This document shows, piece by piece, positions 1 to 33,705 of a DNA stretch of 36,826 nucleotides (the first letter of the stretch is position 1; each line of letters opens with the position of its first letter). This DNA is from a virus, in the IMG/VR virus record IMGVR_UViG_3300029267_003577, positions 1 through 36,826 of that record; one strand, given 5' to 3'. The position numbers were made by a program, and so were the translations under genes. The notes under the pieces were generated by a model. The model was not told the DNA's origin, did not search any database, and saw only the letters and a program-made list of their open reading frames with translations.

Positions 1-1
1 T

Positions 2-2152: not shown

Positions 2153-2154
2153 CC

Positions 2155-3903
2155 ATGAGCCTGACCCTCGCAGAGAAGGTGCGCCTCGGCGCCGCGACCC
2201 CGGCCGAACTCGAATCGTTGTCGGCCGACGACCTGTTCGAGATCAAGACGAACGACGACCACACGCACTACCGCGGCAATGCGGTTCGTGCGATCGAGGC
2301 TCCGGCCGGATACGCGAAGGACCGCAAGGTGCTGCGCCTGGTCGCGTCGACGAACGACAAGGACTACTACGGCGACTCGATCGAGGTCACCGGCGGGAAG
2401 ACGAAGACCGGCGAGCAGGGCGCCGGCTGGAAGATCGACGACTACAACCGCCAGGGCGGCGTGTACCTGTGGTCGCACAACCTCGGGTCGGTGAAGGCTC
2501 CGATCGGCCAGGCGCTGAAGACCTGGAAGGGTCGCATCGGCATCGACGAAGCCGGGCAGGACAAGCTGAAGGCGAAGACCGGTGGCCAGACGAAGAAGGC
2601 GCTGCTGCAGGACGTCGAGTTCCTGTCCGCCGACGACGGGCCCGACGACCACTTCAAGTTCGCCGAGACGATCTACCTGCTGATGAGCGGCAAGGGCACG
2701 CGCTCGGGCAAGGGCGTCGGCGGCAGCTCGGTCGGCTTCATCCCGACGAAGTGGATCCGTCCCGAGAACGCCGAGGAGCGCGAGAAGCTCGGCCTCGGCC
2801 CGTGGGGGATCAAGTTCCTGGAGCAGACTCTCCTGGAGAACAGCGCGACGCCGACCCCGGCGAACCCGTTCGCCTCGGTGATCCCCGGCGCGGCCTCCCA
2901 GAAGGCGAAGGGTGCGTTCGAGCGCACCGTGCTGGAGGAGCTGAAGTTCATGGAGGCCGAGTGCCGCCACCTGATCAGCCCGACCCTCGTGCGCTTCTTC
3001 CGTGAGCGCGCGGTGCTCGGCCACGACGACGCCGCCGAGAAGCTGGAGGCGCGGGTCCGCTCGCGGGTCTTCATCTTCGACGACGTGGCGAAGGCGGCCG
3101 GCTTCGACGTGACCACGGGCGACGCCACGGACTGCCTGGTCGTTCCGAAGGCGATCCCCGACGAGACCGGCGAGGTCGAGGAGCCCGCGGACCGCGGCGG
3201 CCAGGGAGCCCTCCTGCGGGCCCTGGGCGGCTCCGAGGGCGAAGAGGCCCCGGAGGGCGCGGAGGAGGCCCCGGAGGGCACCGAGGCGCAGGAGGCGAGC
3301 CCGGAGGCCCCCGAGGCCGGTAGCGAGGGGAAGTCGGCGGTCCCCCAAGAGTCGGCCGCGTTCGGCGTGTGGAACGCTGAGGGCAAGCTGGTCGCCGTCT
3401 CCGACGATCAGGACGACGCCCAGACTGCGTGCCCCGAGGGCGGTAGCTGGGGCGAGATCACCGTCGTCCCGAAGCTGGCGGACGCCGAGAAGGCGGGCGC
3501 CCCGGCCCGTCCGGAGATCCGCGCCGACCGCGGCGAGGACGAGGTCCGCATCGTCATCGACGGCGAGGCCCGCAGCGTGATCGAGCGCGCGTACGACGCC
3601 GCCGACCTCGCGATGGCGACCCTCGGCGCGATCCTCGACGCGACCGAATCGAAGACCACCGACCCCGAGTTCGAGTCGTCTCTCGGGGGCGGCACCGCTT
3701 TGGACCAGCTCGTCGAGCGCCTGGACAAGGTGCTCGACCGGCTGGAGACCGAGCCCGGCGAGAAGGCGACCTCGCGAACGGGAAGCGATCAGAACGTGAC
3801 GGAGGCCGAGGGCGACGAGTCCGAGGCCGAACCCACCACCACCGAAGAGGCCGTCGCGAAGACGCTGAACGACCTCCTCCGAATCCTTTCCGACCAGCAG
3901 TAG
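2155..3903 (+). CDS. HK97-type prohead serine protease with long acidic C-terminal extension
   Basis: This 582-residue protein looks like a family U35 prohead protease, which cleaves scaffold and capsid delta domains during head maturation. The start is the ATG 2 nt after the portal stop; the frame is open further upstream, but that part overlaps the conserved portal C-terminus. Candidate catalytic residues are His108 in LWSHNLG and Ser191/Ser192 in SSVGFIP, followed by the family's LLENSATPTPANPFA segment (226-240). After about residue 340 the protein becomes Glu/Ala/Pro-rich with EEAPEG-type repeats and then helical acidic segments, ending shortly before the capsid gene. No separate scaffold gene exists, so the extension is a plausible built-in scaffold (inference). 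No clear Shine-Dalgarno sequence is seen. Confidence 0.8.
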   Translation: MSLTLAEKVRLGAATPAELESLSADDLFEIKTNDDHTHYRGNAVRAIEAPAGYAKDRKVLRLVASTNDKDYYGDSIEVTGGKTKTGEQGAGWKIDDYNRQGGVYLWSHNLGSVKAPIGQALKTWKGRIGIDEAGQDKLKAKTGGQTKKALLQDVEFLSADDGPDDHFKFAETIYLLMSGKGTRSGKGVGGSSVGFIPTKWIRPENAEEREKLGLGPWGIKFLEQTLLENSATPTPANPFASVIPGAASQKAKGAFERTVLEELKFMEAECRHLISPTLVRFFRERAVLGHDDAAEKLEARVRSRVFIFDDVAKAAGFDVTTGDATDCLVVPKAIPDETGEVEEPADRGGQGALLRALGGSEGEEAPEGAEEAPEGTEAQEASPEAPEAGSEGKSAVPQESAAFGVWNAEGKLVAVSDDQDDAQTACPEGGSWGEITVVPKLADAEKAGAPARPEIRADRGEDEVRIVIDGEARSVIERAYDAADLAMATLGAILDATESKTTDPEFESSLGGGTALDQLVERLDKVLDRLETEPGEKATSRTGSDQNVTEAEGDESEAEPTTTEEAVAKTLNDLLRILSDQQ

Positions 3904-3907
3904 AACC

Positions 3908-5194
3908 ATGAACATCACCAGCACCGACACGGCCGAGCAGATCGCCGAGAAGCTGAAGAGCATCGTCAACAAGCGCGTGGCCGAGGAGTCGGCCGCTCGC
4001 GACGAGAAGACGAGCGACCTGGAGCAGCGCTACATGCAGCTCAAGGAGGGCCTCGACGCGATCTCCGAGCGCCTCAAGTCGAACGCCCACCACGGCGCCT
4101 CGTACGTCGAGGGCGCCGACGACGCCTTCAAGACCGACAACCCGGACAAGCAGTTCAACCTGCACCGCGGGCTCGTCGGCTGGCACACCGACTTCAACTA
4201 CGACAAGACCCCGTACGGCGACCTCGCCGGCGAGAAGTCGCTCTGGCCCGAGCGTGACATCCTGATGGAGGCGACGAAGAAGGCGCAGAGCGCCGACGTC
4301 GACATCGAGGGTGGCTTCGCCGTTCCCGAGCAGTTCATGGCGGACTTCATCCCGATCCTGCTCGCGCGTTCGATCGCGGCGCAGCTCGGCGTCCGCTTCG
4401 AGACCGGCTTCTCCGGCTCGCCCGTGGTCTGGCCGAAGATCACCCGCGCCGCGCAGGCGTACTGGGTCGGCGAGAACACCGCGCCGACCGAGACCGACAT
4501 CGAACTCGGTCAGGTGAGCATGGAGCCGCACGACCTGGCGGCTCTCGTCCCGATGTCGAACCGCCTGCTCCGCATGAGCGCCGGCGGCTTCGAGGCGATG
4601 TTGCGCAACCACCTCGCGCGGATCATGGCCCTGAAGCTCGACCTCGCGGTCTTCAAGGGCACCGGTGCCAGCGGCGAGCCGCTCGGCATCCAGAACGTCC
4701 CGTCGGTCCCGACGCTCGACTGGGACACCGTCCCGGCCGCCGCGGAGAAGGGCGACGCGTCCACCATCCAGAACATCACCGACAAGCTGTCGATCATGAT
4801 GGAGACGGTGGACACCTCGAACGCCCTCGAAGGCGAACTGGGCTGGGCTGCGCACCCGCAGGTGCTCGGCTACTTCCGCGAGGTCAAGGACACGGACGGC
4901 CACCCGCTGTTCAAGTTCGGCGACCCGAACGAGACCGGCGAGCGTCAGCTCTACGGCTACCGCCTGCTGACCTCGACGCAGCTCGCCAACGGCGACCCGG
5001 CCGACTTCATCTTCGGCAACTGGGCCGACGCGATGGTCGGGCAGTGGGGGACGATGGTCCTCGACAGCTCGATGCACGCCGGCAACGCGTTCTTCAAGCG
5101 TCAGACCTACATCCGCGCGCACCTCGCCGCGGACGTCGGCGTGATGCACGAAGAGTCCTTCGTCCAGGCGACCAACTTCGACGCCACGGCCTAG
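3908..5194 (+). CDS. HK97-fold major capsid protein
   Basis: 428 residues, usual for the family. Residues 1-60 are charged and predicted coiled coil, as in the HK97 delta domain that acts as scaffold and is removed by the protease. The mature core seems to begin near residue 130 (ADVDIEGGFAVPEQF), the typical 'GGxxVP' entry to the HK97 fold, followed by PVVWPKITRAAQAYWVGENT, a VPMSNRLLRMS strand/helix region, a GTGASGEPLGI loop, and the C-terminal region with YRLLTSTQL and DFIFGNWADAMVGQWG. The exact cleavage site cannot be read. The gene lies 4 nt after the protease stop, again without an obvious ribosome binding site, so coupling to the upstream gene is likely. Confidence 0.93.
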   Translation: MNITSTDTAEQIAEKLKSIVNKRVAEESAARDEKTSDLEQRYMQLKEGLDAISERLKSNAHHGASYVEGADDAFKTDNPDKQFNLHRGLVGWHTDFNYDKTPYGDLAGEKSLWPERDILMEATKKAQSADVDIEGGFAVPEQFMADFIPILLARSIAAQLGVRFETGFSGSPVVWPKITRAAQAYWVGENTAPTETDIELGQVSMEPHDLAALVPMSNRLLRMSAGGFEAMLRNHLARIMALKLDLAVFKGTGASGEPLGIQNVPSVPTLDWDTVPAAAEKGDASTIQNITDKLSIMMETVDTSNALEGELGWAAHPQVLGYFREVKDTDGHPLFKFGDPNETGERQLYGYRLLTSTQLANGDPADFIFGNWADAMVGQWGTMVLDSSMHAGNAFFKRQTYIRAHLAADVGVMHEESFVQATNFDATA

Positions 5195-5248
5195 GCCGTA
5201 GCCGAGAACGAACCCGCTCGAACAGACTCGAACGACAAGGACAAAGCC

Positions 5249-5692
5249 ATGACGGCCAACAACCTCGACAGCCACATCAACCACTCGGCGCTTCCGTCGA
5301 TCGACATCAAGACGACGTCGGACGCCGCCGGTACCACCACCACCGCAGCCGTGGACCTGCAGGACAGCTCGGGCTGCCTGTGGATCTTCGACCTGACGGA
5401 CATCAACACCTCGGGCACGGTCGATTCGATCACCGTGCAGACCGACGACAACTCGGGCTTCTCGTCCGCGGCCACGGCCACGGACGGCGACGGCAACAAC
5501 ATCGCGTACACGACGCAGATCACGGCGACGGGGATCTTCATGGTCCGCGTCGACGCGAAGCACTGCGAGCGGTACGTGCGCCTGGCGATCGTGGACGCGA
5601 CGGCCAACGTCGCCTTCGCCGTCGCCTCGCTGCCGTTCGGTTCGCAGTACAAGCCGAACCACGACTCGACCGAGCTGATCCTCTCGGCCTAG
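5249..5692 (+). CDS. Small virion protein, first of three tandem paralogues (candidate head decoration)
   Basis: 147 residues, rich in Thr/Asp/Ser with a beta-type pattern and no membrane segment. An AAGGA ribosome binding site lies 8-10 nt before the ATG. The second half shares a pattern with the next two genes: a VDAKHCERYVRLA segment (compare IDAKNVKRYLSA in the third gene), then an Ala-rich strand ending PFGSQYKPNHD and an acidic/Ser C-terminus. The spot just after the capsid gene is where decoration or cement proteins often lie, so a capsid surface role is suggested, but no named family is recognised. A hairpin follows the stop. Confidence 0.6.
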   Translation: MTANNLDSHINHSALPSIDIKTTSDAAGTTTTAAVDLQDSSGCLWIFDLTDINTSGTVDSITVQTDDNSGFSSAATATDGDGNNIAYTTQITATGIFMVRVDAKHCERYVRLAIVDATANVAFAVASLPFGSQYKPNHDSTELILSA

Positions 5693-5709
5693 AACGACTC
5701 TCCTCCTTC

Positions 5710-5745
5710 GGAGCGGCGCCGGTTGGACATGGCCGGCGTCGCTCC
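5710..5745 (+). terminator. Hairpin after the capsid/decoration genes, possible weak terminator or RNA-stability element
   Basis: The arms at 5710-5722 and 5733-5745 are complementary over 13 bases with one mismatch (GGAGCGGCGCCGG with CCGGCGTCGCTCC), with a 10-base loop. The tract after it is pyrimidine-rich (CCTTCCCC) but not a clean run of T. It could lower transcription into the tail genes or protect the 3' end of the highly expressed capsid message. Confidence 0.45.
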
Positions 5746-5777
5746 CCTTCCCCTGAACCAGACGACCAGACGACGAC

Positions 5778-6344
5778 ATGGGAGCCACGCAGAACTCGAT
5801 CGACGCGCAGGTGGGCGAAGCCTTCGACCTGCTGCCTCTGCTCGCCTACCCGAACGGGACCTACAACCCGACGCCGTCGACCTACACCGGAGCGTTCGAC
5901 GCCGGCCTGGGTACGTCGCGGGAAGGCTCGGGCATCGTCGACGTCTCCGACTACCGCGGGATCGTGATGCAGTGCGTCGTCTCGCGGCCGAGCGGTTCGG
6001 GTACGCCCGCCGTCTCGATCATCCCCCACCACGGGCCCTGCCCCGACTTCGTGACCCACGACCCGTTCGGCACGGGATGGGGATTCTACGTCAACGGCAA
6101 GGGCGCCGGCGCTCCGGGTACGACCGTGATGCGCAACGTCTTCATCGACACGCGCCGGATCATGTCGCACCTCTCCGTCGAGGTCACCGTCGCGGGCACG
6201 GCCGCCGGCTGCCTCCTCGGCGTCTACGCGATCCCGATCGGGCCGAAGGGATCGCGCTCCCAGATCGACTTCGACTCGGACGACCTGCTCGACCTCTACA
6301 GCTCGGGCGATCGCTCCTTCCCCATCTCCACGAAGATCCCCTAG
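5778..6344 (+). CDS. Small virion protein, second of three tandem paralogues
   Basis: 188 residues. It aligns by eye with the next gene along its length: MGA.-N.SI.-VG at the N-terminus, a DYRG-IV strand, a GWGF motif, an (I)DTRRIMSHLS segment in place of IDAKNVKRYLS, then A-PIGP and an acidic DDLLDLYSSGDRSFP C-terminus. No transmembrane segment or signal peptide. The ATG has only a weak upstream ribosome binding site. It is probably a beta-rich structural component of head or neck; function unknown. Confidence 0.6.
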   Translation: MGATQNSIDAQVGEAFDLLPLLAYPNGTYNPTPSTYTGAFDAGLGTSREGSGIVDVSDYRGIVMQCVVSRPSGSGTPAVSIIPHHGPCPDFVTHDPFGTGWGFYVNGKGAGAPGTTVMRNVFIDTRRIMSHLSVEVTVAGTAAGCLLGVYAIPIGPKGSRSQIDFDSDDLLDLYSSGDRSFPISTKIP

Positions 6345-6353
6345 AGCACCGAC

Positions 6354-6902
6354 ATGGGCGCTTCCAACAAGTCGATTCGAACGATCGTCGGGCCGCCGGT
6401 CATGCTGATCCAGCCGCAGTTCTGGAACAACTCGACCGACCCGGCGACGGACAAGGTGTTCGGGCTCGACGCCGACACGCTCGCGGGCGCTGCCGGTGAC
6501 CCGGCGCCGTCGGTGCTCGACCTCAACGGCTACCGCGGCGCGATCGTCACGGTCTGGCACTCGCCTCGCGCGGGTGGCGCGGGGGCCCAGTCGCAGTTCC
6601 GCATCAAGCACGGCGACGCGGCGGATAGCGACACGCACGAATTCCTCGACGACGACGTCGGGGGCTGGGGCTTCTTCCGCGTGTCGACGGCCGGCCTCGG
6701 CTTCCCGCGTCCGCTGACGTTCCTCATCGACGCGAAGAACGTGAAGCGCTACCTCTCGGCGAGCCACGAGGCGAACGGGAACCAGTACTACGCGGCGACG
6801 GCGATGCCGATCGGGCCGATCTACGCGAAGAACGACCTGGACGACACGCGCGATCTCTTCATCACCGGGAGCGGCGAGCTGTCGTTCCCGGATCTCTCCT
6901 GA
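6354..6902 (+). CDS. Small virion protein, third of three tandem paralogues
   Basis: 182 residues, beginning 9 nt after the second paralogue. It shares with it the MGA N-terminus, the GYRGAIVTV strand, GGWGFF, the FLIDAKNVKRYLSA segment, AMPIGP, and the closing DDTRDLFITGSGELSFP. The IDAK-RY segment also links it to the first gene at 5249. The arrangement points to tandem duplication of an ancestral virion gene followed by divergence. Function is not recognised; a trimeric or heteromeric capsid decoration role is a guess from position. Confidence 0.6.
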   Translation: MGASNKSIRTIVGPPVMLIQPQFWNNSTDPATDKVFGLDADTLAGAAGDPAPSVLDLNGYRGAIVTVWHSPRAGGAGAQSQFRIKHGDAADSDTHEFLDDDVGGWGFFRVSTAGLGFPRPLTFLIDAKNVKRYLSASHEANGNQYYAATAMPIGPIYAKNDLDDTRDLFITGSGELSFPDLS

Positions 6903-6926
6903 ACCTGAAACCCAAGGGGGCCACCC

Positions 6927-7397
6927 ATGACCCGCAAGCGAGGACGCGCACAGGCGCACGAGATCGTCGAGAAAACGGAGCAGGCCCAGGCCGGCGTCGT
7001 CACGGAAGAGCCGCAGGCCGAGACGAAGGCGGATGGCGAGGTCGTCCCGATCTACGTCGTCAAGAAGCACGGCGCGATCTACTGGGAGCGCGGCGGCGAG
7101 CTGCGAGGCACCGAGGGCTACGCGGTGCGCGGCGACGACCCGTTCATCCAGTACTACTTCCGCGAGGACCAGCCGGGCATGGTGCCGGCGATGCTGGTCC
7201 GCGACGACACGGCGACGCCGGACCCGCCGTCGAACTGGCCGCAGCACTACCGCAAGAAGGCCGGCCCGGCGTTCATGACCGCGCTGGAGAAGCAGTCGAT
7301 GGCGGCGGCCCGCGAGCGCAAGCTCAAGGAGGCCGCAGAGGCGAAGGCGAACGCCGAGAAGATCCTCGGCGAGATCCCGGAGCAGGACGAGCTGTGA
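6927..7397 (+). CDS. Hypothetical phage protein in head-neck region
   Basis: 156 residues with a strong AAGGGGG ribosome binding site. The N-terminal 45 residues are charged and low in complexity (Glu/Gln/Ala/Lys), the centre (about 45-110) is a compact mixed region with VVPIYVVKKHGAIYWERGGELRG, and the C-terminal 40 residues are a charged Ala/Glu/Lys helix. No family is recognised. Its stop overlaps the GTG start of the next gene (GTGA), so the two are translationally coupled. Confidence 0.6.
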   Translation: MTRKRGRAQAHEIVEKTEQAQAGVVTEEPQAETKADGEVVPIYVVKKHGAIYWERGGELRGTEGYAVRGDDPFIQYYFREDQPGMVPAMLVRDDTATPDPPSNWPQHYRKKAGPAFMTALEKQSMAAARERKLKEAAEAKANAEKILGEIPEQDEL

Positions 7398-7672
7398 GCA
7401 TCTTCGTGCCGCAGAAGGTCGCCGACGAGATCGAGCGCGAGCGTGCCCGCAAGGTGCGCCTGGAGACGACCCTACTTCGCTTCGAGGTAGAGGTCGCGGC
7501 GAAGGACGTCGTGTCGATCCAGCGATCCTCGGGGCTTTTCCGCGGCGAGCATGCCGGCGGCACGACCCTGCGCATGCGTGACGGCAAGAGGGTCTTCGTC
7601 GCCGACTCGACCGAGGTCGTCGCCGCGAAGTTCCGTGCCGCCGACATCCCCTGCCCCGAGGAACTCTGCTGA
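7394..7672 (+). CDS. Hypothetical small head-neck protein
   Basis: 92 residues from a GTG start overlapping the previous TGA by 3 nt; its own TGA overlaps the ATG of the adaptor gene (TGATG). It has a helical charged N-terminus and a beta-rich remainder (LRFEVEVAAKDVV, TTLRMRDGKRVFVADSTEVVAAKF). It reads like a small OB- or SH3-type strand-rich protein, but no family is recognised. The tight stop-start overlaps on both sides support it as a real gene. Confidence 0.6.
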   Translation: MSIFVPQKVADEIERERARKVRLETTLLRFEVEVAAKDVVSIQRSSGLFRGEHAGGTTLRMRDGKRVFVADSTEVVAAKFRAADIPCPEELC

Positions 7673-8292
7673 TGCCCGCACTCGCTCTGACCACGCTGGC
7701 CAACGTCAAGGTGCTCGCGAAGGAGACCGGATCCTCGGATACCGACTTCGACGCGATCGTCGGTGCGTTGATCACGGCTGTGTCGGAGCGAGCGCAGAGC
7801 TACATCGGGCGGGAGTTCGCGACCGCGGCGCGCACCGAGCTGTACTCGATCGGCATGCGTACGCGGTCGATCTTCCTCCGCAACCCGGCGGTCGACACGG
7901 GGCAGACCTTCGAGATCCGCAACGACCTCCTTCGGAACTTCACCGGCGACGCGATGAGCGACGACACGTACTCGCTCGACGCGGAGTCGGGCGAGATCTA
8001 CTTCGTCTCCTCGCTGCTTGCTGGCCCGAACGTCCTGCAGGTGATCTACACCGGCGGGATGGCCGCCGACGCGGCCACCCTGCAGGCCACGTACCCCGAC
8101 CTGGAGTTCGCCGCCCGGCGCCAGGTGCTGCACGAGTTCAACCGGCGCATGTCGCCCGGCGTGAAGCGCGCGACGTCTCGTCGTGGCAAGCAGAGCACGG
8201 AGGGCGAGGGCGAGCTGAACTGGCTCGACTCGACGCGCGAGGTACTCGACTCGTTCCGCCCGACGTGGATGGGCGAAGAGGGGGTCTTCTAG
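7672..8292 (+). CDS. Head-tail adaptor (HK97 gp6-like connector)
   Basis: 206 residues. The N-terminus, with LTTLANVKVLAKETGSSDTDFDAIVGALITAVSERAQSYIGREF, is the helix pair typical of gp6/gp15-type connector proteins, in which short helices lead to a Y-I-G-R-E/F segment. A beta segment follows with LRNPAVDT and the 'D..Y.LD...G.I.F' pattern (SDDTYSLDAESGEIYFVSS), then VIYTGGM, typical of the family, and a C-terminal helix. Such adaptors form a ring under the portal. The long tail after residue 165 is basic, then acidic, and less conserved. Confidence 0.75.
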   Translation: MPALALTTLANVKVLAKETGSSDTDFDAIVGALITAVSERAQSYIGREFATAARTELYSIGMRTRSIFLRNPAVDTGQTFEIRNDLLRNFTGDAMSDDTYSLDAESGEIYFVSSLLAGPNVLQVIYTGGMAADAATLQATYPDLEFAARRQVLHEFNRRMSPGVKRATSRRGKQSTEGEGELNWLDSTREVLDSFRPTWMGEEGVF

Positions 8293-8937
8293 GTGGTCGA
8301 GGTCAAGACCAACGCCGACGACTTCGATCGGCGGGTTCGCGCGTTCGCTCGCATCTTCCCCGAGGAGTTCGACACCGCGCTGAACAAGCTCGGCGCGCGC
8401 TGGCTCCGCGGCATGGCCGGCCGGCTGAGTCGCGACTCGCGCAACCGTTCGCGGACCAAGGTCCGCTGGCGAACCGGCCGTCTCGCACGCTCGTTCTTCT
8501 TCAACCTGAACGGCAAGGGCGGGAAGCTCGAAGGCAAGGAGCTGGCGTTCGGCTCGCGCATGCCGGGGCAGACCAACTACGCCGGTGTCCACGAGCTGGG
8601 CACGCGCGGCGCCGGCGGCACGCTGCCGACGATCCGCCCGACCCGCAGCCAGTACCTCGCGATCCCGCTGCAGGCGGCGTTTGAGGGCACTGCCGAGGCG
8701 CGGCCGACGTCGGCGTTCCGGCCCGACTCCTTCGTCCTGAAGGCCGCCGACGGGCGCCTGTTCATCGTGCGGCGCTCGGGCGACGGCCTGCAGCTGCTCT
8801 TCAAGCTCCAGAAGACCGTCGACATCCCGCCGCGGCTCGGCATGCGCGACACGATGCGCAGCGTGCTGAAGAACAACCTCCGGCGCGAGACGCTCGCCGC
8901 GCTCGACCGGGCGGCGAGGAAGGCGTTCGTAGCATGA
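8293..8937 (+). CDS. Tail completion/neck protein (HK97 gp10 or Mu gpG-like)
   Basis: 214 residues starting at a GTG directly after the adaptor TAG. The N-terminal helix (FDRRVRAFARIFPEEFDTALNKLGARW) leads to a basic segment with the family-like 'R.RTGRLARSF' pattern, then YAGVHELGTRG, the 'A..hE.G' motif of gp10/virion-morphogenesis proteins. The family links the connector to the tail terminator. A long beta-rich insertion (about 120-175) makes it larger than usual. Its stop overlaps the next ATG (ATGA). Confidence 0.7.
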   Translation: MVEVKTNADDFDRRVRAFARIFPEEFDTALNKLGARWLRGMAGRLSRDSRNRSRTKVRWRTGRLARSFFFNLNGKGGKLEGKELAFGSRMPGQTNYAGVHELGTRGAGGTLPTIRPTRSQYLAIPLQAAFEGTAEARPTSAFRPDSFVLKAADGRLFIVRRSGDGLQLLFKLQKTVDIPPRLGMRDTMRSVLKNNLRRETLAALDRAARKAFVA

Positions 8938-9293
8938 CCTCGTTCGCCACCGTCGACGTCCTCGACGTCCTGCTCCCCTTCGAGGGCTTCACCGAGACCG
9001 GCTCGATGCAGGCCGAGTCGACGAACTCGGGCGACCTGGTCGTGCAGGCGCGCGCCTTCTCGGGCCGCGTCGAGCGCTCGTGGTCGTGGGAGGTCACCTT
9101 CGACACGGTCGTCGCGCGCGATCGACTCCTCGACCTGCACGAACGCTCCGGGTACGGCGTGCTCCCGCTTCGCTGGACGCCTCCCGGCGAGAGCGAGATC
9201 AGCGTGTTCCTCACCTTCCCCGACGGCCTGCCGACGCGCGAGAACCCGGACCTCGGGCACTCGTTTCGGATCCAACTGGACGAGGTGCTCTGA
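8934..9293 (+). CDS. Small structural protein with gpM-like C-terminal motif
   Basis: 119 residues, overlapping its neighbours by 4 and 1 nt. The C-terminal part has LPLRWTPPGE followed by a strand-rich segment ending FRIQLDEVL. This echoes lambda minor tail protein M (pattern FLWTPP-E followed by strands and an acidic end) and the gpM-like segment of the 1211-residue protein at 14702. Position between the neck and tail-terminator genes is unusual for gpM. I infer a neck or tail-end role; the link to gpM rests on a short motif and length. Confidence 0.5.
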   Translation: MTSFATVDVLDVLLPFEGFTETGSMQAESTNSGDLVVQARAFSGRVERSWSWEVTFDTVVARDRLLDLHERSGYGVLPLRWTPPGESEISVFLTFPDGLPTRENPDLGHSFRIQLDEVL

Positions 9294-9760
9294 TGGCGAC
9301 CGCTACCGCCGCCGAGCAGGTGCTCCAGGAGCTGAAGACCGCGCTCGAAGACATCACCGTCGCGAACGGCTACAAGACCGACATCGGCGTGGTCGAGTTC
9401 GAGGAGAAGATGCCCGAGAACATCTACTCCTACCCCGCGATCGCGATCAGCGAGATCGGGACGGACGAGGACCAGGACTCATTTGCCGACTACAACGCGT
9501 ACTGGATGCGCTGCCTGCTCGAAGGGTTCATCGAGAGCACCCTCGACAAGAAGGGGCTGGCCGGCCAGCTCTGCGGCGACATCCGCGACCGCCTGTTTTC
9601 CGAGCTGCCGGCGGTGCTGGGCAGCCTCTCCAGACAGGTCAAGATCGACTCGACGTTCCGCATCTACGGAGACGAGAGCGACCCGAGGGCCGGCTTCCTG
9701 ATGGTGATTCGGATCTACTTCCGAACGCCCATCCAAGACTCTTTCACTCTGATCCCCTAG
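9293..9760 (+). CDS. Tail terminator-like protein
   Basis: 155 residues; the start is the ATG overlapping the preceding TGA (TGATG), although the frame is open further upstream. The N-terminal helix (AAEQVLQELKTALEDITVANGYKTDIGVVEF) and the following PAIAISEIG and helix/strand alternation fit gpU/HK97-type tail terminators, which cap the tail tube and join it to the head. Length and position immediately before the tail tube gene agree. No catalytic motif is expected or seen. Confidence 0.6.
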   Translation: MATATAAEQVLQELKTALEDITVANGYKTDIGVVEFEEKMPENIYSYPAIAISEIGTDEDQDSFADYNAYWMRCLLEGFIESTLDKKGLAGQLCGDIRDRLFSELPAVLGSLSRQVKIDSTFRIYGDESDPRAGFLMVIRIYFRTPIQDSFTLIP

Positions 9761-9773
9761 CCCCGACCGACTC

Positions 9774-11315
9774 ATGGTTCTTCTCACTCAACGGAAGCAG
9801 CTCGGGCTGAAGATCGAAGCCGTCGAGGGCACGCCCGAGACGATCACGTCTTCCGAGCTGGTCACGGTTCTCTCTCCGAACCCCACCATCAACCTGAACA
9901 ACGTCCGTCGCCCGGTGCTGCGCGGCACGTTCTCGAAGCTCGCTTCGCTGACCGGCATCCAGGACGCCGCGCTCTCCTACCAGCAGGAGTTCGCGGGCAA
10001 CCTCGCCGGCGACCCGACCATCGCCCCGGCCATCGGTGTCTCGATGAAGGCGTGCGGGTTCCGCGAGGTCGATCTCTACGCGGTCGAGATCGCGTCGTTC
10101 ACGGGCGACCGCGTCGTCGTCGGCGACATCCTCACCGGCGACAACAACGCGTCGGGCACGGACACCGTCCGCGTCATGGCGACGATGAAGAAGGACACGT
10201 TCGACGACGCCGGCGGCGACAAGAACACGCACGCCGACATCCTCTTCTTCGAGCAGCTCACCGGCGCCCTCACCTCGTCCGACACGTCGCTGACGTGCCT
10301 GAACCCGAACCTCGCGGTCGGCGTCTCGCACTCGCTCGCGGCTCCGGTGCTCGGCCTCTCGTCGCAGACCCCGACGCGTGTGGGCACGGCCTACGTCCCG
10401 ACGTCGCAGAAGATCCTGCGTGCGACCGGCGCCATCACCGGCACGTTCACGGTCGGCGAGAACGTCTTCCAGCTGATCGACACGACCAGCGCGGCGACCG
10501 CGCTCGACGTGGCTTACGGCCGCGTCGTGGCGACCGGCGGCTCGGGCGGCTCGGCGTACGTCGACATCCAGACGTACGACTCGTCGTTCCCGTTCGCGAT
10601 CGAAGCTGCGCCGCCTGCCGACATCACCGGCGTCGACTCCGGCGCGACGCAGGCGACCACGGCCGTCGAGCTGGTGCAGGGTCAGTCGCTCACCGCGAAG
10701 TTCTTCGAGGACGGTATCTCGAAGACGTTCGCCGGCTGCCGGGGCTCGAACACCTTCAACCTGCCCACGGGTGGCTTCCCCACGATGGACGTCAACCTGC
10801 AGGGCGCCTACAACGCTGTCGCCGACGAGGCGAACCTCTCGACCGGCGGTGCGACGCAGGCCGCCGTTCCGACGTTCCTCGGCACCGAGTTCCGCGTCAA
10901 CCGGACCTGGCTCCCGTGCGCGTCGCAGATCACGATCGACATGGGGCAGACCCTCGTGCGTCGGACCTGTCAAAACAACGCCGCAGGCCTGGAGGGCTTC
11001 ATCATCACCGATCGCACGCCGACGCTGACGATGGACCCCGAGCAGGTGCAGGAGATCGTCTCCGGCGCCTACACGAAGGCGAAGAACGCGACGACGTTCG
11101 ACATGCAGCTGCGCTTCGGCAACTTCACGAGCGGCTCGGGCGTCGACGCCTGGCTGATCTCGATGGACGTCTGCCAGTACGAGGCGCTCAACGCCGGCGA
11201 TCGGGACGGACTGATCACCTACGACGCGACCGTCCAGATCAACTCGTACGACTCGGTGGAGGACGCCGAGATCGCCATCTGCAACTACGACCGCGCGGTC
11301 GTGGACGCCATCTGA
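9774..11315 (+). CDS. Major tail (tube) protein
   Basis: 513 residues, about twice the lambda gpV length. The N-terminus reads like the phage tail tube family (KIEAVEGTPETITSSELVTVLSPNPTINLNNVRRPVLRGTFSKLASLTG), with an early beta-sandwich pattern and the 'gt' capping typical of tube proteins. The C-terminal third (TFNLPTGGFPTMDVNLQG and MDPEQVQEIVSGAYTKAKN) resembles the second half of a tube domain. The middle (about 110-290) is extra, Thr/Ala/Asp-rich and strand-rich, possibly an inserted surface domain. Location between terminator and tail chaperones fits. High expression is expected. Confidence 0.7.
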   Translation: MVLLTQRKQLGLKIEAVEGTPETITSSELVTVLSPNPTINLNNVRRPVLRGTFSKLASLTGIQDAALSYQQEFAGNLAGDPTIAPAIGVSMKACGFREVDLYAVEIASFTGDRVVVGDILTGDNNASGTDTVRVMATMKKDTFDDAGGDKNTHADILFFEQLTGALTSSDTSLTCLNPNLAVGVSHSLAAPVLGLSSQTPTRVGTAYVPTSQKILRATGAITGTFTVGENVFQLIDTTSAATALDVAYGRVVATGGSGGSAYVDIQTYDSSFPFAIEAAPPADITGVDSGATQATTAVELVQGQSLTAKFFEDGISKTFAGCRGSNTFNLPTGGFPTMDVNLQGAYNAVADEANLSTGGATQAAVPTFLGTEFRVNRTWLPCASQITIDMGQTLVRRTCQNNAAGLEGFIITDRTPTLTMDPEQVQEIVSGAYTKAKNATTFDMQLRFGNFTSGSGVDAWLISMDVCQYEALNAGDRDGLITYDATVQINSYDSVEDAEIAICNYDRAVVDAI

Positions 11316-26018: not shown

Positions 26019-26501
26019 ATGGACCTCAGGGAGCTAGCGGATATGGCTTCGGAGGAGTACCGCGCGACACGAGAGGATCGCGCGATGCTCTACGCTGCTT
26101 TGGACGCGCTCCCTGTCCCTTTCTGGATCAAGGAGCCCGACGAGAGAGACGGGCGCATGGTTTGGATCAACAACGCATATTCCCTGCGTTGGGCTGTCCC
26201 AAAGGAAAAATACGTTGGCGCTCGTGACTCTGAGGTCTGGGGTGCCGAGCTTGCCCTAACATTTGCAAGGAATGACATGGCTGCACTCGAAGCTTCCCCG
26301 CGGCCCTACTTCACCGAAGAGCCTGTCCCCGAAGTGCCTGGTGACCCCCTGGAGGGTGCCCCGATCTGGCAGATCATCAAGCAGTCCATCGAGTGGAAGG
26401 ATCGCAGCTGTGTCGTGGGCATCGCCGTATTCGGCGGCGACGCTGCGCGGATGGTCGCGAAGCTCGGTGCCGTGTACGGGGCAGGCGGTGAAACGCGATG
26501 A
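26019..26501 (+). CDS. Small PAS-domain protein
   Basis: 160 residues. After an N-terminal helix (DLRELADMASEEYR), residues 28-140 follow a PAS fold: a LDALPVPFWIKEPDERDGRMVWINNAYSLRWAVPKEKYVGARDSEVWG pattern like other PAS domains, then AALEASPRPYFTEEPV and a WKDRSCVVGIAVFGGDAA strand pair. It is a stand-alone PAS unit with no kinase, cyclase or HTH domain. Codon use here (GCT, GTT, GCA, GGT, AAA) is less extreme than in the tail genes, which suggests later acquisition. Ligand and partner are unknown. Its stop overlaps the XhlA-like gene (ATGA). Confidence 0.65.
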   Translation: MDLRELADMASEEYRATREDRAMLYAALDALPVPFWIKEPDERDGRMVWINNAYSLRWAVPKEKYVGARDSEVWGAELALTFARNDMAALEASPRPYFTEEPVPEVPGDPLEGAPIWQIIKQSIEWKDRSCVVGIAVFGGDAARMVAKLGAVYGAGGETR

Positions 26502-28261: not shown

Positions 28262-28296
28262 GGCCCCCCACCGACTTCTCGGTTCGGTGGGGGGCC
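28262..28296 (+). terminator. Strong terminator at convergence of two transcripts
   Basis: A perfect 13-bp GC-rich stem (arms 28262-28274 and 28284-28296) with a 9-base loop is followed on the + strand by TCTTTCGTTTC. It closes the late rightward transcript. The leftward transcript ends at 28306, so the same stem may also act there, but without a T-run on that side. Confidence 0.8.
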
Positions 28297-28305
28297 TCTT
28301 TCGTT

Positions 28306-28629
28306 TCACTTCGACGTCCGCCAGAAGCCGGCCATCGGCATCAGCACGCCGTTCCGCTGCCGGTGCCAGTCGAGGTCGTCGGTCGCCTTGATCGCGACGA
28401 CCTCTTCGCGGAACTCCTCGCCCTCCATGCGGAGCACGGTGAAGCACGAGACGAACGCGTGCGGGTAGTTCGGCTTCACGTTCGCCTCGATCTCGTCGGA
28501 GTACTCGATCGCCTTGCTGATCACGCGAGCCCGCGCGCTCGCGTCGCCTTCGATGATCAGCTCGTGATGGTGCTCGGCAGAGTCTCCGGGCGCGGTCGTG
28601 ATGCAGAGCTTCAGTCGGTGGTGGAACAT
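28306..28629 (-). CDS. Hypothetical protein, last gene of the leftward cluster
   Basis: 107 residues, with a GAGGGG ribosome binding site before the ATG; it starts 17 nt after the sulfatase stop, so the two are probably co-transcribed. The N-terminus has HHRLKLCI strands and a His/Glu-rich loop (SAEHHHELIIEGD), then a helix (ARVISKAIEYSDEIE), PNYPHAFVSCFTVLRM and a charged C-terminus. No signal peptide, no membrane segment and no known family. Its place right after the sulfatase makes it a candidate partner, which is a guess. Confidence 0.6.
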   Translation of the reverse strand: MFHHRLKLCITTAPGDSAEHHHELIIEGDASARARVISKAIEYSDEIEANVKPNYPHAFVSCFTVLRMEGEEFREEVVAIKATDDLDWHRQRNGVLMPMAGFWRTSK

Positions 28630-28646: not shown

Positions 28647-30152
28647 CTAGGTGGTAGGAGTGATGGCGTCGAACTCGCGCTGCAGACGGCGCAGCGCGGT
28701 GTAGGCGTCGCAGTCGCCGGCGCACGACTCGAAGGTCTCGGTCACGCCGGCGCGGAGCAGGTTCTCCTTGGGGCGCTCGAACTGCCCGACATCCAGTCGG
28801 TACAGCTCGCTTCGACGAATCGTGCCGTCGCGCTCGTCGTAGAAGCGGATCAGCTTCCAGAGGCCGTCGGAGCCGTAGTCGCCGGTCAGGCCGCGACGGA
28901 GGAAGGTGAAGCCCGCCGACTGGAAGCCGTCCTCCGTGAAGATAGGCACGCCCTCGGGCGACCACTGCTCGGAGAGCGAGACGGTGCGACCGGTCGAGGC
29001 GCTGACGTCGGCCAGCGTCGCGGTGAAGTCGTTCGCGTCCTCGGCCCCGGTCAGCGTCTCGCCGTCGAGCGTGGCGATCGCGGCGCAGAGGTCGGTGGCG
29101 TTGACCAGGCCGTCGCAAACGCCCGTGTCGGAGACGTCGGCGCCGCGGACGATCAACGGGACCAGCGTGCCGGTGTCGTAGACCGTGCCCTTCGAGTTCT
29201 GGCCTAGCTCGGGCGGGACGACGACCTCGAAGTCGGGCCCGTTGTCGCCGGTGATCCAGATGGTCGTGTCGGTCGCGAAGTTGATGTCGCCCGACCCTTC
29301 GAGCGTCGAGATCAGTCGCGCGATCTCCGTGTCGAGAGCCTCCATGCCGAGGCGGATCAACTCCCAGCGGTACTCGTTCTCGTTGCGCAGGCCGAGCCCG
29401 GAGTACTGGTTGAAGAGCGACAGCGCTGAGATGCCGGCGTTGGGGTCGTCGTTGTCCTGTGCGTCGATGATGTGCTGACGGATGACTTGGGAACCCGCAG
29501 ACAGGAGCGCCGCCGGGGGGAGGTGCAGCGGGTCGTGAACGGTGTTCATCGCGAGGTAGAGGACCCAGTCGCCGGACTCACCCTGGACCCAGTCGATCGC
29601 ATCATCGACGAGCACGGTCGGGTTGTAGTTGTCAGGGTTCTCGATGACGAACCCATCTTCGTCACGCTCCCCGATCAATGCGGTCTTCGTGCTCGCGCTG
29701 TCGAAGCGATCCCAGTAGTAGAAGCCCATCGACCCGGAGCCGAGGACCGAGTTGCCCACCAGGTTGGCGAGCGGGCCGACGTAGCGGTCGAATCCCATAT
29801 ACCCGGTCGGGTCGAATCCGTTGCCGGCGTGGCCCAGGTGGAACTTCCCGATGAGCCCCCAGGGGCGCGAGTCCTGCGCGGGGATCCAACTCTCGGTGCC
29901 GTTGGGCAAGAGCGACGAGCTGAAGACGTTCGTGCCGATGCCGGTGCGCCAGGCCGCCTGCCCGGTAAGCCACTCGACGCGCGTCGCGCCGCACACCGGG
30001 TTCACGCGGCAGTTGGTGTAGCGGACGCCGGCGGTCGCGAGCGCGTCCATCGTCGGCGTCAGGGGCGGGCGTTCGATCTGGATCTGCGCAGCGTAGGCGC
30101 CGACGCCTGCGATGCCGATGTCGTCGATGGAAAGGAAGATGGCTTTGCTCAT
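28647..30152 (-). CDS. Type I sulfatase (formylglycine-dependent), phage-encoded
   Basis: 501 residues, usual for arylsulfatases of the alkaline phosphatase superfamily, which hydrolyse sulfate esters. All main active-site positions are present: Asp10-Asp11 (LSIDDIG) and Asp303-Asn304 (ITGDNG) for the metal; Cys54 in CGATR (C-x-P/A-x-R), changed to formylglycine by a host enzyme; Arg58; Lys103-x-His105 (GKFHLGH); His206 (VHDPLH); Lys321. No N-terminal signal peptide is seen, so it is cytoplasmic, virion-bound or released by lysis. Phosphonate monoester hydrolases share the CxxxR site and cannot be excluded. The ribosome binding site is weak. Codon use resembles the structural genes. Confidence 0.92.
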   Translation of the reverse strand: MSKAIFLSIDDIGIAGVGAYAAQIQIERPPLTPTMDALATAGVRYTNCRVNPVCGATRVEWLTGQAAWRTGIGTNVFSSSLLPNGTESWIPAQDSRPWGLIGKFHLGHAGNGFDPTGYMGFDRYVGPLANLVGNSVLGSGSMGFYYWDRFDSASTKTALIGERDEDGFVIENPDNYNPTVLVDDAIDWVQGESGDWVLYLAMNTVHDPLHLPPAALLSAGSQVIRQHIIDAQDNDDPNAGISALSLFNQYSGLGLRNENEYRWELIRLGMEALDTEIARLISTLEGSGDINFATDTTIWITGDNGPDFEVVVPPELGQNSKGTVYDTGTLVPLIVRGADVSDTGVCDGLVNATDLCAAIATLDGETLTGAEDANDFTATLADVSASTGRTVSLSEQWSPEGVPIFTEDGFQSAGFTFLRRGLTGDYGSDGLWKLIRFYDERDGTIRRSELYRLDVGQFERPKENLLRAGVTETFESCAGDCDAYTALRRLQREFDAITPTT

Positions 30153-30234: not shown

Positions 30235-30369
30235 TCAACCGGGCCGAGAGCCCTTCGCGCGGTCGGCGACGACGATCAGCGCCAGGAGGAGCGCCGCCTC
30301 GACGGGCCGGTGAGAGAGGATCAGGACGGCGAGCAGCGGGAAGCCGAAGGCGTGGATGATGGATCTCAT
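30235..30369 (-). CDS. Small membrane protein (44 residues)
   Basis: 44 residues, starting 2 nt after the methyltransferase stop. Two hydrophobic stretches (AFGFPLLAVLILSH and VEAALLLALIVVA) are split by HRP, followed by a charged end. The size and hydrophobicity suggest a small membrane peptide with two short membrane passes. No ribosome binding site is clear, so translation would depend on coupling. It may be a holin-type or export-assisting peptide for the sulfatase operon, or spurious. Not recognised. Confidence 0.4.
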   Translation of the reverse strand: MRSIIHAFGFPLLAVLILSHRPVEAALLLALIVVADRAKGSRPG

Positions 30370-30371
30370 GG

Positions 30372-31289
30372 CTAGAAGAGCTGTGTCTGTTTGAGTTCCG
30401 CGTCCGCTTGCCGGAGGTTCTTGACCGCAAGGTCGTAGTAGCTCGGCTTCAGCTCGATCCCGACGAACCGGCGCCCCATCTTCACAGCGCAGTAGCCTTC
30501 GCTGCCGATGCCCGCGAACGGGCTCAGAACGACGTCGCCCTCGGCGCTCCATAGCTGGATGCATCTTTCGATCACGTCCAGTTGCAACGGGCAGATGTGG
30601 CGTTCGTCTTCCTTCTCGCGGGCGGCGCGGTACTGCAACGTCCGTGACGGGTTGATGTCCGACCATACCGGCGAGGCGTACCTCTGCCAGATGTCGATGG
30701 AGAGGTTGCCGTCGTTGCGAAACGACTTGTCTCCGCGCCATTCGGACAGCTCGCCGCTAACCGGATCGGGGTTCTGTCCCGGCTTCCGAAACGTGCACAC
30801 GTAGTCGGGGATCCCCATGCGGGACATCGCGGAGTCCTTGCAGATCTGCTTATGCAGGAGGCCCAACGCCTTCGTCCGTTGCATCGCCGTCACTGGATCT
30901 TTCCAGATGCACACCTCGGAATGGTAGATCCACCCGGCGCGCTCCATCTCCCGGATGATGTCGCCTCGGAAGTCCTGGATCCCGATGTACCCGTGCCACT
31001 GCTTGGTCGTCGGCAGGTTCATGCAATGGATCGAGCACAGCCGCCCCGGCTTCGTGGCACGCAGGATGTCGGCGAGGATGAACCGGAAGTGCGCCCAAAA
31101 CTCGTCGTAGTCGGTGCTGTTGCCGAGGTCGCGAGAAGACGACGAGTAGGTGTAGAGCGATGCAAACGGCGGCGAGAACACCGAGAACCCCACGGAGTCG
31201 TCCGGCATGGCCTTGAGAACCTCGACGGAATCTCCGTTATAGAGGGTCCAGTCGTCGCCGTGCTCCTGCGTCGTGCACTTTACATCCAT
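30372..31289 (-). CDS. DNA methyltransferase, beta-class-like
   Basis: 305 residues. The start is the ATG at 31289, with GAGG 9-10 nt before it and a 10-nt overlap with the helicase 3' end; the frame is open further upstream. The catalytic motif SPPF (39-42) precedes the AdoMet-binding FAGIGSEG (258-265), followed by GIELKPSYYDLA. This order (IV before I) fits beta-class N4-cytosine or N6-adenine enzymes; SPP-type motifs are common in N4-cytosine enzymes. The HICPLQLDVIER segment (231-242) is motif X-like. No restriction enzyme is nearby, so it is an orphan methyltransferase; it may protect phage DNA. Target site is unknown. Confidence 0.85.
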   Translation of the reverse strand: MDVKCTTQEHGDDWTLYNGDSVEVLKAMPDDSVGFSVFSPPFASLYTYSSSSRDLGNSTDYDEFWAHFRFILADILRATKPGRLCSIHCMNLPTTKQWHGYIGIQDFRGDIIREMERAGWIYHSEVCIWKDPVTAMQRTKALGLLHKQICKDSAMSRMGIPDYVCTFRKPGQNPDPVSGELSEWRGDKSFRNDGNLSIDIWQRYASPVWSDINPSRTLQYRAAREKEDERHICPLQLDVIERCIQLWSAEGDVVLSPFAGIGSEGYCAVKMGRRFVGIELKPSYYDLAVKNLRQADAELKQTQLF

Positions 31290-32659
31290 CGCGGCACCCT
31301 CACCTTCTCTTGCGGGTTGTAGCTGTCCATGTGGCCATACTCGTTCCGTGTTGCGTGCTGCATGTGCGCCAGCATGTGTGACACGACGCTCTCGAACATC
31401 CTTGCCGCGTCGCTGTTCTTGCGCATGACGTTGCGCACCACGCCCGATTCCTGCGACGAGACGATGTAGTGAGCCTTCACCGTGCGCGTCTGCCCGAACC
31501 GCCAGAATCGGCGAATCATCTGGTACCACTGTTCCCACGAATCGGTCGGGAAGATCGCAGTATTCGGACAATGCTGCCAGTTCAACCCGAAACCGCCGAT
31601 GCGGGGCTTGGTGATGAGCACCCGGTCATTGCCCAGCGTGAACGACTCCAGCCGGTCCTCTTTCTCGGCCGTGGTATGCCGCCCGGCAACCTCCACAGCG
31701 TCGGGTATCAAAGCTGCGAGCCTCTCGCCCTCGTCGTTGAGGTTGCACCAGATCACCCACGGCTCGCTGCTGTCGTTCGCCAGGTCAGCAGCGCGCTCGC
31801 ACCTTTCGTCGAGAGACATGCGCCGGGCGGCGCGACGCTCGGCAAGCGTCGAAGCCTCAGACTCGAACAGCATGCCAGGCTCGCGAGCGTTCGTTTCGAT
31901 GATGTGCGGCACGTACTCCATCGGCGGCAAATCGTAGCCGTTGGCATCGAAGCCGATATCCGCTGGTGAGCGCATCATCACCGCCCATGACGCCAGCCAC
32001 GCCCAAAAAGCGTCGTGGGCGTGCCCCTTCAGTCGCCACTTCGATGTCTCGCCTCCGTCGTGGATGAAGTACGTGGCGAGCATCTCCATTCGATCGAGGA
32101 CGCCGCAGAACTCGCTCTGATTGCCGATCTCCATGTAGTCGTTCGGCGCGGGTGTCGCGGTCCACGTTTGCCGGTACGGAACGCCCTTGAACATCGACAG
32201 AACTTGCGCGCGGATCTTGCCGTCCACGCTCTTGATGATGCTCCCCTCGTCGAGAATGACCCCGGCGAAGCGTGCAGCGTCGAAGAGGTGTAGCCGCTCG
32301 TAGTTGGCGACGTTGATCCCGGGCCGGACATCGTCCGATGACCGGCAGACCGTCACGTCGCAGGCGATGTCGAACTTATCAGCCTCGCGTTTCGTTTGGG
32401 CTGCCACCGCGAGGGGGGCGAGGATCAAGACGTTGCCGCCGGTTTCACGCACGATCTGACGCGCGCATTCAAGCTGTTGCAGCGACTTGCCGAGCCCGCA
32501 GTCCTCGAAGCCGCCGAACCTGCCGCGACGGCACGCGACGCGAACGATGGCCGCCTGCCAGTCGAACAGACGATGGTTGATGTCGTCCGCCTCGAATCCG
32601 GCGTGTACGGTCCGCCGCGATTTTCTGGACAGGAACTCTTGGTAGGTAGCGGCGGTCAA
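31280..32659 (-). CDS. SNF2/DEAD-like helicase
   Basis: 459 residues from a TTG that overlaps the preceding TGA (TTGA); an ATG further upstream would lie inside the neighbouring gene. Motifs: Walker A DCGLGKS (53-59), DEGS (137-140) for motif II, TATPAPND (167-174) for motif III, ITKPRIGGFGLNWQ (349-362) for motif V, and QMIRRFWRFGQT (380-391) for motif VI. This is a short SNF2-type ATPase as found in many phages next to a methyltransferase. It probably remodels DNA-protein complexes or unwinds DNA in phage replication; no activity can be read. GC is lower and codon use is more relaxed than in the tail genes. Confidence 0.88.
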   Translation of the reverse strand: MTAATYQEFLSRKSRRTVHAGFEADDINHRLFDWQAAIVRVACRRGRFGGFEDCGLGKSLQQLECARQIVRETGGNVLILAPLAVAAQTKREADKFDIACDVTVCRSSDDVRPGINVANYERLHLFDAARFAGVILDEGSIIKSVDGKIRAQVLSMFKGVPYRQTWTATPAPNDYMEIGNQSEFCGVLDRMEMLATYFIHDGGETSKWRLKGHAHDAFWAWLASWAVMMRSPADIGFDANGYDLPPMEYVPHIIETNAREPGMLFESEASTLAERRAARRMSLDERCERAADLANDSSEPWVIWCNLNDEGERLAALIPDAVEVAGRHTTAEKEDRLESFTLGNDRVLITKPRIGGFGLNWQHCPNTAIFPTDSWEQWYQMIRRFWRFGQTRTVKAHYIVSSQESGVVRNVMRKNSDAARMFESVVSHMLAHMQHATRNEYGHMDSYNPQEKVRVPRWM

Positions 32660-33665: not shown

Positions 33666-33689
33666 GTTGACGGGTGAATATTAGCGCCA
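33666..33689 (+). repeat. Direct repeat copy 1, candidate operator
   Basis: Begins GTTGACGGG, then an AT-rich middle and ends GCGCCA. It contains the -10 box (33678-33683) of the leftward promoter, so a bound regulator would block it. Confidence 0.45.
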
Positions 33690-33705
33690 TCGGCTATCGC
33701 GTCAA
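33678..33705 (-). promoter_or_regulatory. Leftward sigma70-type promoter
   Basis: On the minus strand, TTGACG (33705-33700) is followed after 16 bases by TAATAT (33683-33678), matching the -35 and -10 boxes well. The -10 lies about 54 bases upstream of the first leftward ATG. It would drive the eight-gene cluster ending at 28306. Confidence 0.6.

Follow-up and report, generated by a model that had tools for sequence, protein, structure and literature searches.

Many microbes are coated with sulfated polysaccharides or live among them, and a phage enzyme acting on the sulfate groups has apparently never been characterised. Viral sulfatases appear in the auxiliary-gene lists of a fish-gut study (PMC11077953) and a review of the deep biosphere (PMC10029852), and the few papers that we found give them as annotations only. 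A literature search, preprints and most subscription papers aside, returned neither a characterised phage sulfatase nor a description of the phage clade reported here. The closest described enzymes are the S1 glycan-acting sulfatases, such as S1_16 (9fo1), the carrageenan sulfatases 6bia and 6prm, and PyuS (7stt). For sulfatase activation, CxAxR has been named alongside CxPxR as a signature (PMC11482014). The calcium site of PyuS reads DNG (PMC8746622), and the choline sulfatase SmeCOSe has Asp296-His297 at its metal site (PMC9063841). Furthermore, some Pseudoalteromonas phages encode a formylglycine-generating enzyme (FGE) (PMC10232697).

The window analysed here is the whole stretch of 36,826 nucleotides of the IMG/VR record IMGVR_UViG_3300029267_003577. 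Its leftward gene cluster extends from about 33.6 to 28.3 kb, and the seventh of its eight genes encodes the sulfatase P0001, between a 44-residue hydrophobic peptide and a 107-residue protein, as the earlier note on this DNA had described. The features of the cluster are the following, and the rest of its genes are small and unknown.

33677..33705, minus strand: promoter-like site TTGACG-N16/17-TAATAT heading the cluster, a consensus match only
31280..32659, minus strand: SNF2-like helicase, with weak but consistent matches
30372..31289, minus strand: DNA methyltransferase (N6/N4 type)
30235..30369, minus strand: 44-aa hydrophobic peptide, upstream of the sulfatase
28647..30152, minus strand: S1-type (formylglycine) sulfatase P0001, 501 aa, ATG start, called from family, residues, fold and the lack of an upstream start
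29979..29993, minus strand: codons of CGATR (residues 54-58), the predicted formylglycine site and motif, placed from the translation
28306..28629, minus strand: 107-aa protein without a family match, last gene of the cluster
28262..28303, no strand assigned: GC-rich hairpin where the sulfatase cluster meets the rightward genes that converge on it, probably a terminator, recovered in part by the scan that gave the promoter-like site

Promoter-consensus matches in the region numbered 3, against 0.8 expected.

We are highly confident that P0001 is an S1/PF00884 formylglycine-type sulfatase. In the Pfam search proposed in the earlier note, residues 5-362 matched PF00884 at 56 bits (E 5e-15), against a cut-off of 25. 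Alignments of bacterial and phage sulfatases show D10, C54, R58, K103, H105, H206, D303, N304 and K321 conserved in all or nearly all sequences (C54 and R58 in all), and D11 in nearly all. Together, the Pfam score and this conservation bear out the claim of a complete enzyme. The predicted metal ligands are D10, D11, C54, D303 and N304, with K103/H105, H206 and K321 as the other catalytic residues. The alignment with bacterial sulfatases places the calcium ligand set D, D, D, N at D10, D11, D303 and N304, the same set as in PyuS (PMC8746622), and the activation motif C54-G-A-T-R is of the CxAxR type. P0001 is apparently encoded by a working sulfatase gene. Its codon score, from scoring trained on other genes of the same phage, is the 8th highest in the window. 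P0001 and its relatives also match PHROG family 19870 (1e-12 to 1e-29), a family without a functional label. The protein opens with MSKAIFLSIDD, the first core strand, which begins at residue 3, and there is no start codon among the 23 open codons upstream of the ATG; thus, the reading that P0001 has no signal peptide holds.

It is important to consider which kind of sulfatase this would be. The AF2 model, which provides the structural support with a mean pLDDT of only 66 (pTM, 0.78), has the sulfatase fold, its best Foldseek match being 9fo1 (S1_16; E 2e-16, TM 0.57-0.62); Foldseek also places SpPMH (4upk, 6.5e-16) near the sulfatases. A profile of 12 phage homologues scored GalNAc/carrageenan-type enzymes best (7stt, 8e-67; 9fo1 S1_16, 8e-65; 6bia, 1e-63), and gave 4upl, a member of the PMH/arylsulfatase group, a much weaker score (7e-38). 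The protein does not lie among the phosphonate hydrolases, a placement that the earlier note had named as fatal to its reading. The metal site of P0001 is DNG at 303-305. The Asp-His pair expected of a choline sulfatase or phosphonate monoester hydrolase is absent, with Asp303-Asn304 instead, and the choline-sulfatase model scores P0001 at 25.6 bits versus a cut-off of 433. Taken as sequence evidence, the DNG site and the profile ranking favour a glycan sulfatase over a choline sulfatase or phosphonate hydrolase. P0001 shares with the S1 glycan-acting enzymes their fold and the residue set DD...CxxxR...KxH...H...DN...K, from which FGly chemistry is expected, but it differs from them in its identity of about 20%, its phage location, its CxAxR motif and its lack of a signal peptide.

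The sulfatase gene is phage DNA, neither a chimera nor a host segment. A second contig, IMGVR_UViG_3300017989_000017 (56,806 bp), matches window positions 10376-36826 (26.4 kb) and, with its other end, positions 1-10498, each with one mismatch, and it has a 123-bp terminal direct repeat. The overlap at both window ends and the repeat indicate that the genome is circular, at about 56,683 bp. Around the sulfatase, this closed genome encodes TerL, portal, major capsid, tape measure, central tail fibre J, a RecD2-like helicase and primase. TerL and portal are only 23-29% identical to those of deposited phages among the matches listed, which are spread over many hosts. In IMG/VR, TerL and capsid searches gave no close kin beyond the same contig, with two capsid matches at 27-28%.

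The closed genome contains no FGE (PF03781) and no anaerobic sulfatase-maturing enzyme, as its one radical-SAM protein scores as QueE. Consequently, formylglycine must come from the host, as had been proposed, and a self-sufficient sulfatase system was rejected. The tested records of the phage sulfatase clade were also free of FGE. This need for a host maturation enzyme predicts which bacteria can be hosts. In some phage sulfatases (L103:4920-6245, L113, L115, L116 and L118), the P/A position of CxPxR/CxAxR is taken by N or Q (CANTR, CSQSR, CGQSR), which raises the question of how or whether maturation occurs.

The earlier note had also regarded such enzymes as rare in phages. This stands for isolates, since INPHARED contained no credible isolate-phage homologue of P0001, but not for metagenomic phages, as the IMG/VR scans recovered relatives on about 20 distinct phage contigs. 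The INPHARED sulfatase matches that we inspected were rejected as host DNA. Two records deposited as phages have bacterial-looking content: MG065691 (Campylobacter phage A11a) has a stretch of enterobacterial-looking genes, and MT836299 (a fecal scaffold) has a bacterial-looking stretch with Bacteroides-type loci. Fold matches in BFVD were giant-virus proteins, with no phage among them, and single-protein scans of genome contigs yielded no relatives.

IMG/VR phage sulfatases are of two main kinds, one choline-sulfatase-like and the other a diverse set, P0001 included, whose contigs also encode terminase, portal or tail proteins. The choline-sulfatase-like gene, with a DHG metal site, is found in AT-rich phages (L022, L026, L030 and eight similar contigs), and L022 matches the NCBIfam choline-sulfatase model at 1.5e-33. 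These genes share the PF00884-type fold with P0001 but belong to a different branch, and they represent a second independent acquisition of sulfatases by phages. In our tree, 20 phage proteins including P0001 and one bacterial protein form a clade (support, 100/99), within which 19 phage proteins group at 97/95. The clade members are L016, L028, L035, L038, L041-L047, L073, L083, L100, L103, L109, L113, L115 and L116. They resemble P0001 in their supported common clade, their DNG metal site and their location on phage contigs, and differ from it in identity (<=31%), in lying near tail or terminase genes and, for about half, in a hydrophobic N-terminus. P0001 groups with L100 and the phages of group M described below (84/79), all without signal peptides. 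Its branch is long (1.48) and its top identity is 31%, so its exact place within the clade is uncertain.

The sole bacterial protein found inside the clade is a plasmid sulfatase of Persicobacter sp. JZB09 (L008), which shares 38% identity with the phage enzyme of L041. It differs from the phage enzymes in being secreted, with a lipoprotein-like N-terminus, and no phage genes were recognised nearby. The bacterial references in the tree came almost only from plasmids; thus, fuller chromosomal sampling could add bacterial members to the clade.

Group M consists of 23 contigs obtained by a TerL search, nine of which extend far enough to show the sulfatase locus, and all nine (9/9) have the gene at one locus. 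In the closest phages of this group, TerL is 99.8-100% identical while the sulfatase is 55-80% identical (aa), and DNA identity is 51-86% inside the sulfatase gene and 95-100% just past it. For one pair, dS is 0.84 in the sulfatase versus 0.087 in TerL, a contrast that points to allele exchange. The dN/dS of the group M sulfatase is about 0.16-0.19, indicating purifying selection and thus an enzyme that is kept functional. Strong divergence of the sulfatase and of the DNA directly upstream was seen among the near-identical phages L039/L090, L072/L074 and L073. L039 has an additional 91-aa gene after the sulfatase, which is absent in L037.

In other relatives, the gene lies in modules of host interaction. 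In L041 and L046, it follows homologous tail-fibre and small genes in a baseplate module, and in L100 it is between very large tail-like genes. One neighbour family, whose tested members have no informative Pfam/PHROG match, recurs next to the sulfatase in the following contigs.

L116:3621-5333, neighbour-family gene
L044:8972-10456, neighbour-family gene
L043:9133-10821, neighbour-family gene
L041:9213-12788, neighbour-family gene
L115:2905-4326, neighbour-family gene
L113:4616-7135, neighbour-family gene

L044, L115 and L116 have two more genes in common. The hydrophobic N-termini, which are signal-peptide or lipoprotein-like in L041, L042, L044, L103 and L109, suggest that routes out of the cell vary among phages. 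A gene that is always present and under selection (group M), swapped between phages, and placed in host-interaction modules (other phages) argues for a host-specific target outside the cell, with sulfated glycans as the simplest candidate.

Among the three roles that the earlier note had offered (removal of sulfate from host surface polysaccharide, altered host sulfur supply and superinfection control), surface-glycan desulfation is thus the one favoured by the tail-module context and the allele swapping of the relatives. P0001 would be made in the host cytosol from a gene near the distal end of the leftward cluster. A maturation enzyme of the host would oxidise Cys54 of P0001 to formylglycine, and the protein would bind one calcium ion. 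Lacking an export signal, it would be released at lysis or carried out with the virion. It may then strip sulfate esters off a sulfated polysaccharide that coats or surrounds host cells, and this could help the phage to reach, leave or escape trapping by the glycan. We lean slightly towards this host-matured, virion-borne or lysis-released enzyme, the glycan target being taken from the relatives; the lean is slight because the position of the gene differs from that in the relatives and their neighbour family is absent from the P0001 genome. The clustering of P0001 with a methyltransferase and an SNF2-like helicase, outside the tail module, counts against this reading, as do the hydrophobic N-termini of about half of the relatives, which suggest export rather than virion packaging. 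Moreover, the allele-swap evidence comes from group M, as the P0001 phage has no close relative for comparison.

Other explanations deserve consideration. The enzyme may act inside the cell as an auxiliary metabolic gene product, freeing sulfate from small sulfate esters for cysteine or methionine synthesis during infection. The missing signal peptide and the grouping with intracellular DNA-metabolism genes are consistent with such a function, viral sulfatases have been reported as sulfur AMGs (PMC10029852), and a separate choline-sulfatase-type phage family exists (L022 and ten similar AT-rich contigs). However, P0001 has DNG rather than DHG and falls outside the choline-sulfatase group of the tree, polysaccharide sulfatases rank first in the profile comparison, its relatives include exported and tail-module forms, and the swapping of alleles between near-identical phages is unexpected for housekeeping sulfur supply. 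Hence, we regard the metabolic function as unlikely, though it is the strongest competitor of glycan desulfation. Alteration of the infected cell's own sulfated glycan, which would block further adsorption or the re-adsorption of progeny, appears less probable still. In the relatives with signal-peptide or lipoprotein-like N-termini listed above, the enzyme would work at the infected cell's envelope, but P0001, lacking an export signal, would act only after lysis, and no lysogeny functions were noticed in this phage.

Two further alternatives concern the protein and the DNA themselves. The same fold could serve another chemistry, that of a phosphonate monoester or phosphodiester hydrolase, or the protein could be a catalytically dead glycan binder. 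The proximity of SpPMH in Foldseek and the promiscuity of alkaline-phosphatase superfamily enzymes, illustrated by the phosphatase activity of PyuS (PMC8746622), speak for other chemistry; nevertheless, PMH-type enzymes score well below glycan sulfatases in the sequence profile, the metal site is DNG, the catalytic residues are all kept and the relatives are under purifying selection, so that we see little room for it. That the sulfatase is host DNA, through misassembly or accidental carriage, is the least credible of all, even though sulfatase matches in deposited phage records do prove to be host DNA. The gene reads the same in two overlapping contigs and the circle closes, which contradicts the host origin envisaged in the earlier note and led us to reject contamination and misassembly; the codon usage of P0001 is phage-like, and its phage homologues form a clade.

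More broadly, tailed phages may own a dedicated, anciently diverged sulfatase clade serving as an exchangeable host-glycan module, dependent on host FGly formation and often accompanied by an undescribed neighbour protein, a generalisation that we put forward more tentatively than the role of P0001 itself. The proposed use resembles that of phage capsule depolymerases in altering a surface glycan, and the relatives of P0001 also have the tail-module context and the allele swapping. In contrast, depolymerases cut the chain, whereas P0001 would remove a substituent, and its virion association is putative. With its conserved active sites and swapped alleles, the phage clade offers concrete enzymes for expression and testing.

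Other genes of this phage are also worth recording. A 152-aa protein encoded at window positions 26043-26501, with the tail genes on one flank and the lysis side on the other, has a PAS-fold match (PF08448), which is unusual for a phage. Past the right end of the window, the same genome has the QueE-like radical-SAM gene (L005:11952-12569) adjoining a 225-aa gene (L005:11278-11955) whose likeness to the DpdA type was seen by eye only, and a possible function of this pair is 7-deazaguanine DNA modification.
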